The notes below the pieces were generated by a model. The model saw only the letters and a list, made by a program, of their open reading frames with translations, did not search any database and was not told where the DNA came from. Shown here in pieces: positions 3,050 through 58,598 of a stretch of DNA of 64,000 bases. How positions within the stretch are numbered: the stretch's first letter is position 1; every line of letters starts with the position of its first letter. The DNA comes from Mycolicibacterium lutetiense (lineage in GTDB: Bacteria; Actinomycetota; Actinomycetes; Mycobacteriales; Mycobacteriaceae). Position numbers and translations under genes: made by a program. The stretch lies in NCBI RefSeq assembly GCF_017876775.1, contig NZ_JAGIOP010000001.1:62001-126000 (forward strand), read 5' to 3'.

Positions 3050-3478
3050 GTGAGCGCATCTGTCATACGCGTCGATCTGACCGACACCCCGATCTCGCTG
3101 ACCGAATACGAGGCGCTGGTGGCCCATGAGGCAGCCGGAGCCGTCGTTGGGTTCTCCGGGGTGGTGCGTGATCACGACGGTGGCCGTTCGGTCATTCGGC
3201 TGGACTACTCCGCGCACCCCCACGCGCTACAGACGTTGGAAGAAGTTGCCGCCGAAGTCGCCGCACAGGCCACCGGGGTACGTGCGATCGCGGTCAGCCA
3301 CCGCATCGGCACCCTGCACATAGGAGACGCCGCCCTGGTGGCCGCTGTGGCAGCGGACCATCGCAAGGCGGCGTTCGAAACCTGTGCCCGCCTCGTCGAC
3401 AGCGTCAAAGAGCGGCTACCGGTGTGGAAGCACCAGTATTTCTCCGACGGTACCGACGAGTGGGTCGGTTCGGCCTGA
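3050..3478 (+). CDS. moaE: Molybdopterin synthase catalytic subunit
   Basis: MoaE transfers sulfur from the MoaD thiocarboxylate to cyclic pyranopterin monophosphate, yielding molybdopterin. The 142-residue protein carries [14 protein letters not shown], with Lys120 and Lys127 matching the two catalytic lysines of E. coli MoaE (119 and 126), plus the conserved VVRDHDGG segment. The GTG at 3050 is chosen because a strong GAGGAGAAGGA ribosome-binding site sits at 3032-3042. An ATG at 3015 overlapping the mog stop is out of frame. The partner MoaD is encoded nearby on the other strand. moaE ends three bases from the convergent rpfA stop, so there is no room for a separate terminator. Confidence 0.95.
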
Positions 3479-3481
3479 AAA

Positions 3482-4438
<957 letters not shown>

Positions 4439-4679
4439 TTAACCCCTGCCCGATGGATGGAGCTCGGCGCGTCGGTTCGGGGTGGGCCAACCGATTAGGG
4501 TCGGTTGACTTGGAAATGAACGTTAACTGCTGCCGGCTATCCCGTCACGTTTAGCGGCCTCGGGCGTTTTGGCTCGGAGCAAACTCTAAAAGTTGTTTAA
4601 AGGTGCAGGTTATTTTGGCGTTGTCGCAGGTGGGCGAAGGGCTCCACCGCGCCGTAGCCAGCTCGTGACCATTTCGTTA

Positions 4680-33549: not shown

Positions 33550-33591
33550 CACAAAACTGCCCCAAATCAATGGATTTGGGGCAGTTTTGTG
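33550..33591. terminator. 19-bp hairpin terminator between arfC and prrB
   Basis: A perfect 19-bp stem, with arms 33550-33568 and 33573-33591 around an AATG tetraloop, ends in a TTTTGTG arm. It lies between convergent arfC and prrB and should work in both directions. The IS110 element starts a few bases beyond the right arm, so the element's target includes part of this hairpin. Confidence 0.9.
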
Positions 33592-33604
33592 CCTCAGTGT
33601 CAGT

Positions 33605-33790
33605 CTGGCAATTGCCGCGTTGCGGTGGTTGGGTCTGGATCATCTGGTGTCTGGCTCATTTTGTGTCTGCCGCCCCTTTGGTGGGTTGGCGTTGAGCAGT
33701 AGTGCCGGCATCAGATGTGAAGGACCGGACGGCGTGACTTGATAGGAGCGTGGCATCGCCCCCGACTGAGAAGTGTCCGCCGACCGGCCC
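33605..33790 (+). ncRNA. Predicted bridge RNA of the IS110 element
   Basis: The 5' non-coding end folds into three parts. A stem-loop lies near 33612-33625. A target-binding loop is closed by arms 33641-33655 and 33704-33717; it holds TTTTGTGTCT (33659-33668) and GAGCAGTAG (33694-33702). A donor-binding loop is closed by CCGGACGGCG (33725-33734) with CGCCGACCGG (33778-33787) and ACTT with AAGT; it holds ATAGGAGC (33742-33749) and ACTGAG (33765-33770). The first two segments match the left and right halves of the insertion site with one G-U wobble each, and the last two match the right and left element ends. This is the layout known for IS621-type bridge RNAs. Confidence 0.75.
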
Positions 33791-33832
33791 AACCTCAACA
33801 CACCCTCTTCATGACTGAAGGAGGCAACCATC

Positions 33833-34184
33833 ATGGTTGTTGTTGGAGCCGATGTACACAAGTCCACCCACACCTTTGTCGCGGTCGATGAGGTCGGGTG
33901 CAAGCTCGGCGAGAAGACCGTCAAGGCCACCACTGATGGGCATCGCAAGGCCATCATGTGGGCCCGCGAGCAGTTCGGTGTCGAGTTGATCTGGGGCATC
34001 GAGGACTGCCGCAACATGTCGGCACGGCTGGAGCGTGACCTGCTCGGTGCGGGGCAGAAGGTGGTGCGGGTACCCACCAAACTGATGGCCGCCACCCGCA
34101 AGTCCGCGCGCGCTCGAGGCAAGTCCGATCCGATCGATGCGCTTGCGGTGTCGCGGGCAGTGCTGCGCGAACCTGATCTGCCGG
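33833..34184 (+). pseudogene. IS110 transposase, N-terminal part (split by IS21)
   Basis: The RuvC-like DEDD domain of an IS110-family recombinase: Asp7 in GADVHK, Glu57 in GIEDCR, and Asp99/Asp102 in KSDPIDALAVSRA. The frame is cut after REPDLP by the IS21 insertion and then runs 14 bases into IS21 to a stop. Joined to the downstream part at the 7-bp duplication, the frame is restored exactly (355 codons including stop), so the recombinase was intact before the insertion. The ATG at 33833 follows GAAGGAGG. Confidence 0.9.
34178..34184. repeat. Target duplication CTGCCGG, left copy (IS21)
   Basis: CTGCCGG here and at 36826-36832. Removing IS21 and one copy restores an uninterrupted IS110 transposase frame (Leu-Pro-Val-Ala-Ser-His across the join). 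Confidence 0.88.
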
Positions 34185-34255
34185 TGTCGACCGTCGCGTA
34201 ATTCCCCCGGGGTGTCCGTCACGTAATTCCGCCACCGGTGGGCCTCGGTGTAGGT

Positions 34256-35038
34256 CTACCGGGATGGCTTGGTGTTGTCTACCGGCGCGCTAGCGCCGGG
34301 TCTTTTTCGGGGTCTGTAGCTAGGGCCGTCCATCAGGATTTGGTGGCTGGTATTGATCAACCGGTCGAGCAGTGACTCGGCGACGACGGGGTTGGGGAAC
34401 AGGTTGTACCAGTCCTTTGGTGATCGGTTGGAGGTCAGGATGAGCGGTTTGCCGTTGACGGCGCGGTCGGAGATCAACTCGTAGAGGTCGTCGGCGTGCA
34501 TCGCGGTGTGCTCGCGCATGGCGAAGTCGTCGAGGATGAGCACGAGCGGTTTGGTGTATTCGCGGATGCGTTGACCCCAGGTGCGATCGGCGTGACCGCC
34601 GGCGAGGTCGGAGAGCACCCGGGAGGTCTTGGCGAAGCGGACGTCGCCGCCGCGGCGGGCTACGGCGTGGCCAAGTGCTTGTGCCATATGGGTTTTCCCG
34701 ACGCCGACGGGTCCGTAGAGGATGACTGATTCGGCGGCGTCGAGCCACCGCAGTGCGGCCAGGTCTCGCAGCATCGCGGCGGGCAGTTTGGTGTTGGCGG
34801 TGAAGTCGAAGGATTCGAAGGTCGATTGTTCCTCGAAGCGGGCTCGGCGGATGCGCCGGGTGAGGGCGGCGGATTCGCGGCGGGCGATCTCGTCTTCGCA
34901 GAGAACTTGGAGGAAGTCGAGGTGTCCGAGGGTGCCGTCGCGGGTTTGGGCCAGCCGGGTGTCGAGGGTGTCGAGCATGCCGGTGAGTTTGAGGGTGCGT
35001 AGCGCATTGCGCAGGGCGGGGTCGAGAATGCTGCTCAT
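34256..35038 (-). CDS. istB: IS21 helper ATPase IstB
   Basis: A 260-residue AAA+ ATPase that works with IstA in target selection and strand transfer. The N-terminal helical domain is followed by Walker A GPVGVGKTH (about 110-118), Walker B LVLILDDFAMRE and the sensor segment LILTSNRSPKDWY. The arginine-rich C-terminus (RPRKRPG) is typical. It lies 61 bases downstream of istA on the same strand. No frameshift or missing motif was seen. Confidence 0.94.
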   Translation of the reverse strand: MSSILDPALRNALRTLKLTGMLDTLDTRLAQTRDGTLGHLDFLQVLCEDEIARRESAALTRRIRRARFEEQSTFESFDFTANTKLPAAMLRDLAALRWLDAAESVILYGPVGVGKTHMAQALGHAVARRGGDVRFAKTSRVLSDLAGGHADRTWGQRIREYTKPLVLILDDFAMREHTAMHADDLYELISDRAVNGKPLILTSNRSPKDWYNLFPNPVVAESLLDRLINTSHQILMDGPSYRPRKRPGASAPVDNTKPSR

Positions 35039-35099
35039 AGGTTGATGTCCTTGGTTCTGATCGAATGATGTTGATTGACAGTCAGATACGATGCGGTGG

Positions 35100-36662
35100 T
35101 TACGCGGTCTCGCCGGTGGTGGTGTCGAATGCTTGCGGTCCGCGCAGATGGGCCGCGGCCTGCGGGGCGGCGGATTCGGGAATGCCGTCGAGTTCGGTGC
35201 CGGCGACCAGGATCCCCTTGACGGTGCGGTAGCTCGGATCGCCCACAGCTATCGAACGGGCGCAGGCGGCCTCCAGGCGGACGTCGCCGACGGTCTTGCG
35301 CAGTGCGAGGACGCCTTGGGCGCTGCGCAACCGGTGGATGGCGTTGACTTCCATGAACTCGGCGATGACCTGGGTGCAGGCCGGTCCGACCTCGGCGGCC
35401 ACCCGGCGGCACCAGGTCGGGTTGCGCATCGTGAAGGCGATCTTCTCCGGCGGGTAGTGCTCAAAGTCGGTGGCCCGCCCGCGGTGATGGGTGACGTGGG
35501 TGGCCACCACGTCACCGCCGTGCACGATCTGCACGATGTCACCGCAGGTGCGAGCATGGACCTGCTGGCCCATCAGCCGCCACGGAACCGAGTACAGCGC
35601 CTTGCCGACCTTGACGTGGCAGTCGGTGGCGACCTTGCCCGTCGACCACACCGCGAGCTGAAATGCGTTCTGAGGCAACGGTAATAATGCACGTCGTTCG
35701 ACGGTGGCGAAGACGAACCCGGGTTGCTCACCGTCCAGCGCCCGCGACTGTCGCACCCCGGCGACCTCACGGCACCACGCCACCGCGGCGGCCTGCATCT
35801 GCTCCAGCGAGGTGAACTCCCGACCCCGCCAGAACGAGTCCCGAACGTATTGCATCGGCCGCTCGACGCGTGGTTTGTCCTTCGGCTTGTTCGCCCGCGC
35901 CGGATCGACCAGGCAGCCGTAGTGCGCACCCAGCTCGGCGTAGGCCTTGTTGATCTTCGGGTCATAGAGATCCGGTCGAGTGACACCGGTCTTCAGGTTG
36001 TCCGGGACCAGCCGGGCCGGGACACCCCCGAAGAACTCGAACGCCGCCACATGCGAAGCGCACCAGGAGGATTGATGCATCTTCAGGACCGGTTGGACGA
36101 ACAGGTGCCGTGAGTGAGCCAGCACCATCACGAACGCCCACACCGTGACGCGTCGACCGCTGACCGGGTCGAACCACATCCCGAGCTTGCCGTAGTCGAT
36201 CTGGGCTTCGCTGCCCGCCGGCACCGGCCCGCGCGGCACGGTCACCTTGTTGCGGGCCGCCTCCTCGGAAAGGTTCCCCGAGATCCACCTGCGCACTGAG
36301 GATTCCGAGGCGGCAACGCCATGCTCGTCGCGCAGCCGCTGCGCCACCGTCGCCGCACTGACCTCGGCTTTGAGCCAGTCACGGATCCGGTCGCGGTGCA
36401 CCTCGATCCCGGGCCAGGTCGTGGCCCGCAGGCCGGGGTCGGCGATCTCGGGGAACCACCGGCCGACATGGGCCGCCCACGCCGTCTCGGTGATCGGCAC
36501 TCCGCCGGGGGTCAGTGACTCCGCGATCGCCGGCGCCAGATACTTTGCGATGGTCTTGCGGTCGATGCCCAAACTCTCCGCGAGCTGGCGCTGGGACCGA
36601 CCCGCATGCCAATGGGTCAACAACTCGATCAGGTCGAACACGTCGAAACTTCTCCTCGCCAT
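35100..36662 (-). CDS. istA: IS21 transposase IstA
   Basis: A 520-residue DDE transposase. An N-terminal helix-turn-helix region (GRSQRQLAESLGIDRKTIAKYL, about 21-42) and a second one near 105-128 precede the catalytic core: Asp156 in QIDYGKLG, Asp221 in LVPDNLKT and Glu267 in KPRVERPMQYVRD. A C-terminal beta-rich domain follows. All key residues are present. The gene begins about 160 bases inside the element end at 36825. Confidence 0.94.
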   Translation of the reverse strand: MARRSFDVFDLIELLTHWHAGRSQRQLAESLGIDRKTIAKYLAPAIAESLTPGGVPITETAWAAHVGRWFPEIADPGLRATTWPGIEVHRDRIRDWLKAEVSAATVAQRLRDEHGVAASESSVRRWISGNLSEEAARNKVTVPRGPVPAGSEAQIDYGKLGMWFDPVSGRRVTVWAFVMVLAHSRHLFVQPVLKMHQSSWCASHVAAFEFFGGVPARLVPDNLKTGVTRPDLYDPKINKAYAELGAHYGCLVDPARANKPKDKPRVERPMQYVRDSFWRGREFTSLEQMQAAAVAWCREVAGVRQSRALDGEQPGFVFATVERRALLPLPQNAFQLAVWSTGKVATDCHVKVGKALYSVPWRLMGQQVHARTCGDIVQIVHGGDVVATHVTHHRGRATDFEHYPPEKIAFTMRNPTWCRRVAAEVGPACTQVIAEFMEVNAIHRLRSAQGVLALRKTVGDVRLEAACARSIAVGDPSYRTVKGILVAGTELDGIPESAAPQAAAHLRGPQAFDTTTGETA

Positions 36663-36832
36663 CGGCGCCCTTCCTCACGAGTCGAACCGTGAGTCGAGCG
36701 AACCTGCCTACGAGGCCCACGAGCGGCTGCCACACCGCCCGGGTGGCGGAATTACGTGACAGACGGGGTGGGGGAATTCCGTGACGGACGACCCTCAAGC
36801 TGGGGGAATTACGTGACCGCTGACACTGCCGG

Positions 36833-37545
36833 TCGCTTCGCACGACGAAGTGTCGCGGGAGTTCAAGTTGTTGACTGATCGTCGTGATGTTCTTGTGGGA
36901 CAACGGACCTCGGCGATCAACCGGGTGTTGTGGCATGTTCATGACCTCGATCCCGAGTGGGCCGCCGCGTTGGGCTCACTGACTGCTCTCAAGCATCAGA
37001 AGGCCCTGATGGTGTGGCTGGCCGAGCGGCCCGGTGTGGTCGCTGAAATCGCCCGCGCTGAGGTGGGCGACATCATCCGGCTCACCAGTGAGATCAACAC
37101 CTTGACCAACCGCTTGGCGGCCAGCATCGGCCAGGTCGCACCGACGCTGCTGGCGATTCCTGGCTGCGCGGAGCTCTCGGCGGCCAAGATCGTCGGCGAG
37201 GTCGCCGGCATCGGCCGGTTCACAAGTGAGGCAGCGTTTGCCTGCCATACCGGGGTTGCGCCCATCCCGGCGTGGTCTGGGGCCAGTGCCGGGCAGATGC
37301 GGTTAAGCCGGGCCGGCAACCGTCAACTCAACGCCGCCATCCACCGCATCGCCCTGACCCAGATTCGGATGACCGGCAGCCTCGGGCAGATCTACTTCCA
37401 AAAACTGATCGAGACCGGGAAAACCAAACGCGCGGCGCTGCGCTGCGTCAAACGCCGAATCGCTCGCCGCGTCTACCAAGCCCTACGCCGCGACGCCCAC
37501 GACCACCAAAACCCAGTCAAGCCGCCACAATCAGTGGCGGCTTGA
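36833..37545 (+). pseudogene. IS110 transposase, C-terminal part (split by IS21)
   Basis: The separated C-terminal portion (transposase_20 region) starts SREFKLLTDRRDVLVGQRTS and holds the helix-hairpin-helix-like segment LLAIPGCAELSAAKIVGEVAG and AWSGASAGQMRLSRAGNRQLN, where the family's catalytic serine lies. It carries no ribosome-binding site, so it is unlikely to be translated as an active protein. It ends eight bases before the element's right end. Confidence 0.88.
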
Positions 37546-37570
37546 CATAGGAGCTATTGCTCGCGGGAAA

Positions 37571-51806: not shown

Positions 51807-56044
<4,238 letters not shown>

Positions 56045-56094
56045 GAGCAATGATCAGAACCTGTGGATGAGCCTCGGCGAGGCGGCGTAGGAAA

Positions 56095-56178
56095 GGGCGC
56101 ACCTTCCCGAGGATGATCTGAATGTCGAAGGTCTGATCAAGAGCCGGCGTTGGCGCGCTGGTTCGGGAAGGTACGCCC
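56095..56178 (+). promoter_or_regulatory. Hairpin sequestering the transposase ribosome-binding site
   Basis: Arms 56095-56110 (GGGCGCACCTTCCCGA) and 56163-56178 (TCGGGAAGGTACGCCC) pair at 15 of 16 positions. The right arm ends directly before the ATG at 56179 and contains GGAAGG, the only Shine-Dalgarno-like sequence. A transcript entering from outside would hold both arms and hide the site; a transcript starting inside the loop would not. Confidence 0.7.
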
Positions 56179-57492
56179 ATGCTCACGGTAGTTCACGATG
56201 CGGATTCATCCAACGAGGATGCTGGCTCGTCGCGGTCGTTGCTCGATGAGATTGTCCGCGACGGTGCCCGCCAGATGCTGGCCGCAGCGTTGCGGGCTGA
56301 GGTCGCCGCCTACATCGAGGCTCATGCCGGTGAGCTTGATGAGAACGGGCACCGGCTGGTGGTGCGCAATGGCTATCACCGCGAGCGCGAGGTGCTCACC
56401 GCGGCGGGCGCGGTGAGTGTGACCGCGCCGCGGGTCAATGACAAACGTGTTGACCCGGACACTGGTGAGCGGCAACGGTTTTCCTCGGCGATCCTGCCGG
56501 CGTGGGTGCGCAAGTCGCCGCAGATGACCGAGGTGTTGCCGTTGCTGTATCTGCATGGCTTGTCGACCAGTGATTTCGGTCCGGCGTTGGAGCAGTTCCT
56601 GGGCTCGGGTGCCGGCTTGTCGGCCACGACGATCACCCGACTCACCACGCAGTGGCAGGACGAGGCCAAGGCCTTCGAGGCCCGTGATCTGTCGGGCACC
56701 GACTACGTCTACCTGTGGGTCGACGGCATCCATCTCAAGGTGCGCCTGGAGCAGGAGAAGCTCTGTTTGCTGGTGATGATCGGTGTGCGCGCTGACGGCC
56801 GCAAGGAGCTGGTCGCGCTCACCGACGGGTACCGGGAGTCGGCCGAGTCGTGGGCTGATCTGTTGCGGTCGTGCCGACGTCGCGGGATGACCGCACCGGT
56901 GCTGGCCGTCGGCGATGGGGCCCTGGGGTTCTGGAAGGCCGTGCGTGAGGTGTTCCCGGCCACCGGCGAGCAGCGGTGCTGGTTTCACAAGCAGGCCAAT
57001 GTTCTTGCCTGCCTGCCAAAGTCGGCTCATCCGGGGGCGATCGCGGCGATGCGGGAGATCTACAACGCCGAGGATATCGACCACGCGCAGGTGGCGATCA
57101 AGGCGTTCGAGGTGGACTACGGCGCCAAGTACCCCAAGGCGGTCGCCAAGATCGTCGATGACGCCGATGTGCTGCTGGAGTTCTATAAGTACCCGGCCGA
57201 GCACTGGGTCCATCTGCGCACTACCAACCCGATCGAATCAACGTTTGCCACGGTACGTTTGAGGACCAAGGTGACCAAGGGGCCGGGTTCACGCGTCGCC
57301 GGAATGGCCATGGCTTACAAGCTGATCGACGCCGCGCAAGCCCGCTGGCGAGCCGTCAACGCACCGCACCTGGTCGCTCTGGTCCGGGCCGGCGCGATCT
57401 TCCACAAAGGCAAACTGCTCGAGCGACCCACCGACATCACCCCGTCGGCGGACTCGGCACCGACCGAATCAACTGGAACGGAGGTCGCCTGA
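56179..57492 (+). CDS. IS256-family (Mutator) transposase
   Basis: A 437-residue DDE transposase. Catalytic residues are Asp182 in YLWVDGIHLKVR, Asp246 in AVGDGALGFWKA and Glu353 in TNPIESTFATVR; the C-x2-H pair typical of the Mutator superfamily is in RCWFHKQ (Cys267, His270). The N-terminal helix-turn-helix region and full length indicate an intact, possibly active enzyme. It lies in the sense direction within the 23S gene, so rrn transcription passes through it. Confidence 0.96.
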   Translation: MLTVVHDADSSNEDAGSSRSLLDEIVRDGARQMLAAALRAEVAAYIEAHAGELDENGHRLVVRNGYHREREVLTAAGAVSVTAPRVNDKRVDPDTGERQRFSSAILPAWVRKSPQMTEVLPLLYLHGLSTSDFGPALEQFLGSGAGLSATTITRLTTQWQDEAKAFEARDLSGTDYVYLWVDGIHLKVRLEQEKLCLLVMIGVRADGRKELVALTDGYRESAESWADLLRSCRRRGMTAPVLAVGDGALGFWKAVREVFPATGEQRCWFHKQANVLACLPKSAHPGAIAAMREIYNAEDIDHAQVAIKAFEVDYGAKYPKAVAKIVDDADVLLEFYKYPAEHWVHLRTTNPIESTFATVRLRTKVTKGPGSRVAGMAMAYKLIDAAQARWRAVNAPHLVALVRAGAIFHKGKLLERPTDITPSADSAPTESTGTEVA

Positions 57493-57525
57493 AACAAGCC
57501 GATCCACAGGTATTGACAATTCCTC

Positions 57526-58326
<801 letters not shown>

Positions 58327-58482
58327 CAACCAACAAACAACCAATGTTTGATGAGTTTCAGTAAGACGCACATCTGCTACGCAACCACACCACAAACCAC
58401 ACACGACACTTGTGTCGGGACATGGTTCCCCATGCCCCACCACCAAAACACAAGGTTTACACTCAATAACGAGTGAATAGAG

Positions 58483-58598
58483 TTACGGCGGTCCATAGCG
58501 GCAGGGAAACGCCCGGTCCCATCCCGAACCCGGAAGCTAAGCCTGCCAGCGCCGATGATACTACCCTGTCGGGTGGAAAAGTAGGACACCGCCGAACA
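58483..58598 (+). rRNA. 5S ribosomal RNA
   Basis: About 116 bases, TTACGGCGGTCCATAGCGGC to GTAGGACACCGCCGAACA, with the complementary ends GGCGGT/ACCGCC and the loop segment CCCATCCCGAACCCGGAAGC. It lies about 155 bases after the 23S end. The spacer holds no gene. Confidence 0.95.

Follow-up and report, generated by a model that had tools for sequence, protein, structure and literature searches.

In the parts of the IS621 reports drawn on here, an IS110 recombinase works with an RNA encoded in the element's left end; this RNA has one loop for the target and one for the donor, and its left guide addresses the bottom strand and its right guide the top strand (PMC11208158, PMC11208160), with handshake bases placed after the right target guide (PMC11208158). 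CT is described there as the preferred core in both DNAs, with a nearly invariant T, and AT, GT and TT cores as less effective when target, donor and RNA are altered together (PMC11208158, PMC11208160). For ISEc11 and ISEc21, other elements of the IS1111 and IS110 types, a guide RNA from a non-coding region, the seekRNA, is described as picking the target in PMC11187229, the main text of which has no words beginning Mycobacter. IS900 of M. avium subsp. paratuberculosis is a mycobacterial element of the IS110 family with CATG in its target and the motif CATGNNNNNNTCTCCTT, according to the part of PMC8141618 that we used. The literature searched, which excluded most subscription journals, preprints and supplements, yielded no account of a bridge RNA in mycobacteria, of cores that differ or of IS110 elements aimed at leaderless genes; the IS621 covariation set of 5,511 RNA–target pairs may hold such elements unnamed (PMC11208158).

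The element described here has these traits in common with IS621, from the recombinase to the placement of the handshake bases. It extends from T33594 to T37557 on the plus strand of the window, the 64,000-nt stretch of DNA that was analysed (C1:62001-126000 in a genome of 6.35 Mb), and its ends are common to four copies with different flanks, namely the window copy and three further ones in the same genome (L009, L010 and L011). In the window the recombinase gene is split, with one Pfam domain in each half. Its 5′ part (33833-34184, plus strand) holds DEDD_Tnp_IS110 (PF01548, E = 1.2e-14) and its 3′ part (36833-37545, plus strand) holds Transposase_20 (PF02371, E = 5.1e-19). Between them, within the gene, lies an IS21-like element with istA and istB (34185-36825, minus strand), flanked on both sides by the 7-bp repeat CTGCCGG. 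No intact recombinase is possible from this copy, and the earlier note's description of a functional bridge RNA is not borne out for it; an intact reading frame of 354 aa is present in L009 and L010. Its product matches the recombinases of IS621 (E = 1.4e-9; PDB 8wt6) and, by sequence match alone, ISCro4 (E = 1.8e-8; PDB 9t56). In the IS621 alignment, S266 of the intact recombinase, in the Transposase_20 domain, falls on the catalytic serine, and E57, D99 and D102 also align, in a stretch of low score on its own (6.5 bits), both assignments assuming a two-residue offset of the PDB chain. D7 was assigned by motif only.

L011 shows the opposite arrangement to the window copy: there the IS21-like element interrupts the bridge RNA within its donor loop (L011:508-780 and 3380-3480) and the recombinase frame is open, whereas in the window the RNA is intact and the gene is split. 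The IS21-like istA/istB element itself has four 100% identical copies (window 34185-36825, C2:1954621, C2:2852630 and C2:1416073), two of them inside copies of this IS110 element, and two further relatives at 75% identity. Elsewhere in the window we noted a c-di-AMP riboswitch (4264-4448, minus strand; RF00379, 69.2 bits) and an rRNA operon with 16S, 23S and 5S genes (51811-58597), in which the 23S match covers 4616 bases against a model of 2925 positions, which may point to an insertion or an intervening sequence.

Judged from its sequence and conserved structure, the left end (33595-33832, plus strand) encodes a bridge RNA of the IS621 type, predicted to span about 33613-33795. The consensus of 33 distinct relatives is an outer stem that encloses a target loop and a donor loop. 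Across its 47 pairs, 98.8% of cells were paired and 7 pairs had changed on both sides, values that none of 500 shuffles reached, and when the partner strand was slid as a control, pairing fell to only 28-47%. Thus, covariance folding of related left ends bears out the earlier note's reading of an IS110-group bridge RNA with a target and a donor loop, as does the guide reassignment test described below. Folded singly, the element's own RNA had a weak advantage over shuffled sequences (z = -1.73), 12 of 200 of which did as well; its fold has a 5′ hairpin, GCCGC-GTT-GCGG (33614-33625, plus strand), that lies outside the 33-sequence consensus. Within 33595-33832 of the window we found no plus-strand open reading frame of at least 80 aa; minus-strand frames overlap this region, and in L010 a plus-strand frame of 252 aa extends into the RNA region. 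Three relatives (L132, L133 and L149) have about 30 extra bases in the left end, 5′ of the RNA.

A candidate promoter for this RNA would exist only where the right and left ends are joined, with CAGTCT (33601-33606, plus strand) as its −10-like hexamer. TTGACA, 17 bases and NANNNT are found at the joined ends of all 62 copies counted, a tally of sequence matches that does not amount to 62 independent tests because both ends are highly conserved. If transcription begins, as predicted, close to 33613, immediately ahead of the 5′ hairpin, and the RNA runs to the end of the outer stem at 33794, it would be about 180 nt long, compared with 177 nt given for IS621, for which a promoter at the joined ends is also described (PMC11208160, in the part used here).

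To the left of the element stands a terminator-like hairpin, CACAAAACTGCCCCAAAT..ATTTGGGGCAGTTTTGTG (33550-33591, plus strand), which the insertion leaves unbroken and which probably serves in termination. Similar hairpins occur at all four copies and at empty sites, and every genomic copy lies at the outer 3′ arm of such a hairpin, in the same orientation and with the hairpin complete on its left. The earlier note was therefore right to include a terminator arm in the target, and the other copies, when checked against the guides, proved to sit at guide-matched terminators as well, which makes 4 of 4 copies with the window one. In most of the related hairpins at other places in this genome, the corresponding stretch is ..GTCTGCTCG. 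The right junction is ...GGAGCTAT/TGCTCG in all four copies (a slash marks a junction).

An orthologous empty site fixes the boundaries. L233, orthologous to the L009 locus (neighbouring gene 89%), has an uninterrupted terminator ending in CACGTC-TGCTCGCGG, with no extra bases, and the occupied site L009 reads CTGTC/T-CAGTG...GGAGCTAT/TGCTCGCGG. From these it follows that the element supplies T on the left and CTAT on the right, and that the window target was TTTTGTGCC-TGCTC, made up of the left target TTTTGTGCC (33585-33593, plus strand; t8 is C33593) and the right target T-GCTC (37558-37562, plus strand; t9 is T37558 and t10-13 are GCTC). The earlier note had placed the boundaries at the CT dinucleotides at 33593 and 37554. 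The left junction, C33593/T33594, is upheld; the right one was off by three bases, as the shared copy ends and the empty L233 site put it at 37557/37558. The right end, TTGACATAGGAGCTAT (37542-37557, plus strand), comprises a −35-like box, the left donor sequence and d5-d8, and CATAGGAG and TTGACA are present in 62 of 62 counted copies. Among the 14 loci displayed for comparison with L009, a terminator of this kind occurs only in L233 and, less closely, in L240, and the nearest relative, L228 (96%), has a different hairpin. At the window locus, L156, L157, L158, L160 and L161 keep both neighbours and have neither the element nor a matching terminator, so that the exact empty site is not shown there; L159 matches the left flank only.

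The four segments picked out in the earlier note, TTTTGTGTCT (33659-33668), GAGCAGTAG (33694-33702), ATAGGAGC (33742-33749) and ACTGAG (33765-33770), are present and paired across stem-closed loops. On the comparative evidence, the left target guide is ATTTTGTGTC (33658-33667; this and the following guides are on the plus strand), assigned by its identity to the left target and by the family-wide test; it ends at t8, with a conserved UG next, and shares 8 of 10 bases with the left target in the window copy, L009 and L011 and 9 of 10 in L010. The family-wide test likewise assigns GAGC plus A (33694-33698) as the right target guide, for GCTC at t10-13 and for t9. There follow, by the family-wide pairing counts, a G that would wobble with d8 (T37557) and TAG at the handshake position, for A37556, T37555 and C37554 (33699-33702). 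The 9-nt GAGCAGTAG is thus the right target guide and the handshake guide read as one, the finished junction having been mistaken for the target. The left donor guide, ATAGGAGC, equals the right end at 37547-37554 and is nearly invariant in relatives, and the right donor guide, ACTGAG, is the complement of (C/T)T-CAGT at the left end and invariant in the 33 sequences. Complementarity of the donor guides to the element ends is present, but because both partners are near-invariant in these sequences, covariation offers no test of it.

We are confident that the left end encodes an IS110-group bridge RNA, that a joined-end promoter would transcribe it, that its guides would read the target and the joined ends, and that the circle would be inserted beyond the terminator hairpin. 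The comparisons establish the anatomy of the element, its target rule and its boundaries. By analogy with IS621, we infer transcription, RNA binding and catalysis as follows. Excision would join the right and left ends and so form the promoter TTGACA-17-CAGTCT, from which the RNA would be transcribed. In the donor loop, ATAGGAGC and ACTGAG would read the joined ends, predicted to be GGAGCTATT-CAGTG in this element and GGAGAAACT-CAGTG in the gene-start clade described below. The circle, T-CAGTG...GGAGCTA-T, would be placed by the recombinase between t8 and t9, duplicating no target bases, at a point just past the hairpin of a repeated terminator, which would stay intact. After strand exchange, G-TAG would act as handshake guide, its G pairing with d8 and its TAG with d7-d5 of the right end that the element itself brings. 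New insertions would be expected at targets of the form TTTTGTGTC-TGCTC.

Guides and targets were compared across relatives sampled as 60 regions from the match list, with high identity and several copies per genome favoured and more distant matches left out. Two records (H1 and H2) were taken from the 43 of a plasmid search, and a scan of genome contigs gave three loci, of which only L056 was countable; a poorly chosen sequence pattern gave five matches in G261 and none in G132 and G296, and its four loci were used. Sixty-nine loci were entered, and 62 copies in 30 families, not all of them independent, were counted. Own guides outscored reassigned ones for the left guide (7.85 versus 4.98 of 10), the right guide with t9 (4.63 versus 3.32 of 5) and the handshake bases (2.87 versus 2.36 of 3), none of 5000 permutations being as high in any of the three. 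Taken separately, the 9 families whose right ends are CTAT or CAAT gave 0 (left), 0 (right) and 22 (handshake) of 5000 permutations as high, and the 21 gene-start families 0, 0 and 2360, the handshake bases being invariant in the latter and hence uninformative there.

In the CTAT/CAAT families (19 copies), many of which lie beside inverted repeats, the left guide is in exact register, with a mean of 8.53 of 10; in the gene-start families (43 copies) its best shift is 1 in 29 copies, 2 in 11, 3 in 2 and 4 in 1. Right-guide pairing at t13, t12, t11, t10 and t9 was found in 19, 19, 16, 16 and 18 of 19 copies and in 42, 42, 42, 43 and 31 of 43, respectively; with a T at position 9, pairing there would be reduced to 5 of 19 copies and 19 of 43. 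One family, in G296, has its right guide paired at 3 of 5 positions only. The base after the right guide is pairable with d8 in all 62 copies, and the handshake bases pair at d7, d6 and d5 in 61, 61 and 56 of 62 copies (19, 18 and 14 of 19; 42, 43 and 42 of 43).

These data also bear on two other readings of the locus. According to the earlier note, the target was TTTTGTGC-CT-ATTGCTC, read by a 9-nt right guide, GAGCAGTAG, around a CT core shared between 33593 and 37554, and an empty site should read uninterrupted ...GTCTATTGCTC. In keeping with this, GAGCAGTAG pairs over nine bases with CTATTGCTC, with one wobble, and TTTTGCGCCTATTGCTCG does occur in 2 of 396 genus genomes (G187:C197:13392-13409 and G268:C206:22460-22477). 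However, this genome holds no convincing empty example: TTTTGTGTCTATTGCTC with up to three mismatches had 2 matches, each with 3 mismatches, versus 5 for the reversed control, whereas TTTTGTGTCTGCTC with at most one mismatch had 30 versus 0, three of the 30 being the outer arms of element-bearing terminators. Two-mismatch matches to the proposed site occur in 8 of the 396 genus genomes, the two with TTTTGCGCCTATTGCTCG among them, against those 30 in this genome alone. Empty terminators read ..GTC-TGCTC, not ..CT-ATTGCTC, the orthologous site L233 lacks the extra bases, and the bases past the right guide vary between clades with the element's right end (CTA, CAA, AAA), not with the target. A CT-ATTGCTC target was rejected on the counts for TTTTGTGTCTATTGCTC and TTTTGTGTCTGCTC and on the empty site, and we regard the account built on it as highly improbable. 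Alternatively, the recombinase might choose the target, or the hairpin might be recognized, with RNA complementarity arising incidentally, for instance from a conserved leader. Several families do adjoin inverted repeats, but the guides track each family's target, gene-start families included, and in the left-end region no Rfam family reached its gathering score; we give this explanation very little credence.

Target choice by the bridge RNA would extend to a clade with a different kind of site. When 30 recombinases were placed in a tree, each of the right-end types CTAT (that of the window element), CAAT and AAAC fell on one side of a branch, with support of 96/86, 96/98 and 95/97, respectively; L133 and L149 form long branches. 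The AAAC type comprises 42 copies (L089, L091-L102, L112-L128, L136-L138, L140-L147 and L150), with L090 of the same clade left out for its right end, AATC. An ATG or GTG lies two bases past the right end in 42 of 42, and in 36 of 42 the frame behind it stays open, for at least 100 codons or for 80 or more up to where the stretch stops. From TANNNT to the start codon there are 6 target bases in 25 copies, 7 in 10, 8 in 2 and 9 in 1, no such hexamer being found in 4 of the 42, a layout that we take to be that of leaderless mycobacterial promoters. Left guides in this clade hold hexamers such as TAGGCT, TAGATT, TAGGGT and TAGCGT, right guides are mostly CATG or CACG, and the AAAC right end puts AGGAG six bases ahead of the start codon. 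These sequences suggest that the relatives have the same kind of RNA retuned to gene starts. On an M. intracellulare plasmid (L089:180-210), a copy lies directly behind a right end, where GGAGAAAC-T-CAGTG has the look of joined ends of that type.

Occupied and empty orthologous sites place the exchange point. Empty L176 reads TAGGCTCGTC-GCGTGCTG and occupied L118 reads TAGGCTCGTC/T..AAAC/GCGTGCTG, at the start of a gene that is presumably dcd. Empty L196 reads TTAGGCTGCAG-CCGTGACG and occupied L095 TTAGGCTGCAG/T..AAAC/CCGTGACG; empty L220 reads GACGCGCAC-GCCTGG and occupied L108 GACGCGCAC/T..CAAT/GCCTGG. Target duplication is absent from the pairs L118/L176, L095/L196 and L009/L233; near the right junction of L108, an insertion apparently within coding sequence, there are 16 extra bases further right (GCCTGGTTCCGCGCAC) relative to empty L220. 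At L120, no start region that could be compared turned up in the six relatives displayed out of 12 loci. The target cores t8t9 at the three empty sites L176, L196 and L220 are CG, GC and CG, and the corresponding donor cores would be CT, CT and TT. Across the 62 copies the left flank always ends in T, and t9 on the right is G in 28, C in 18, T in 11 and A in 5. Target and donor cores thus differ among the relatives, and the products switch between core positions 8 and 9. The window element probably combines a target core CT with a donor core TT, so that the earlier note's picture of four guides meeting at CT fits the element's own target core and fails for the donor core and for relatives whose two cores differ.

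On balance, and with some reservation, we favour the view that this lineage joins DNAs with unlike core dinucleotides, exchanging strands between the core bases, the T coming from the element alone, and that the guides of one clade have switched from terminators and inverted repeats to leaderless gene starts, the left one reading the −10 hexamer and the right one the start codon with elastic spacing. Once inserted, such an element would have its bridge RNA driven by the host promoter from its own first bases, and its right end would give the host gene a Shine–Dalgarno sequence, so that both would survive. A possible but rather doubtful alternative, itself compatible with the bridge RNA and insertion mechanism set out above, keeps the IS621 geometry of a 2-nt staggered core and ascribes the switch between positions 8 and 9 to repair with a fixed strand preference at each of the two positions. 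The top strand of IS621 is cut after the core, and its authors discuss excision and repair of mismatched bases (PMC11208158, in the sections used here); for the window element both models yield the same product. Against a staggered core stand the left T in 62 of 62 copies beside a t9 of any base and the CG, GC and CG cores of the empty sites, as a replicated 2-nt heteroduplex would leave t8t9 or d8d9 at each side, not the mosaic observed.

Exchange between unlike cores would carry practical weight: if core identity is unnecessary, programmable bridge recombinases of this lineage would be freed from CT sites. The gene-start clade, if correctly read, would represent a parasite whose RNA recognizes leaderless promoters and whose insertion provides the host gene with a ribosome binding site. 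The lineage also offers a natural guide–target series: within one genus, the class of target has changed along with the bases of the right end and of the guides, and the target guide can be told apart from the handshake guide by comparison alone.

Compared with IS621 as described in the parts of its reports used here, the lineage departs in several ways. There the core is shared, whereas here t9 may be G, C, A or T and the T comes from the element only. The handshake position covers three bases (d5-d7) instead of two, and the left donor guide stops two to three bases short of the core, unlike that of IS621. A donor-loop handshake with target positions 7 and 6, an IS621 trait, finds no support in the counted copies (t7, 6 of 19 and 14 of 43; t6, 4 of 19 and 29 of 43). 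In target habit, IS900 is the nearest described mycobacterial element among those found. We read its motif, CATGNNNNNNTCTCCTT, as a probable start codon with a Shine–Dalgarno sequence, reversed; both the −10-like hexamer with start codon of the gene-start clade and the terminators of the window element are unlike this. The window RNA alone adds a member to a known system; the novelty lies in the unequal cores and the gene-start clade.
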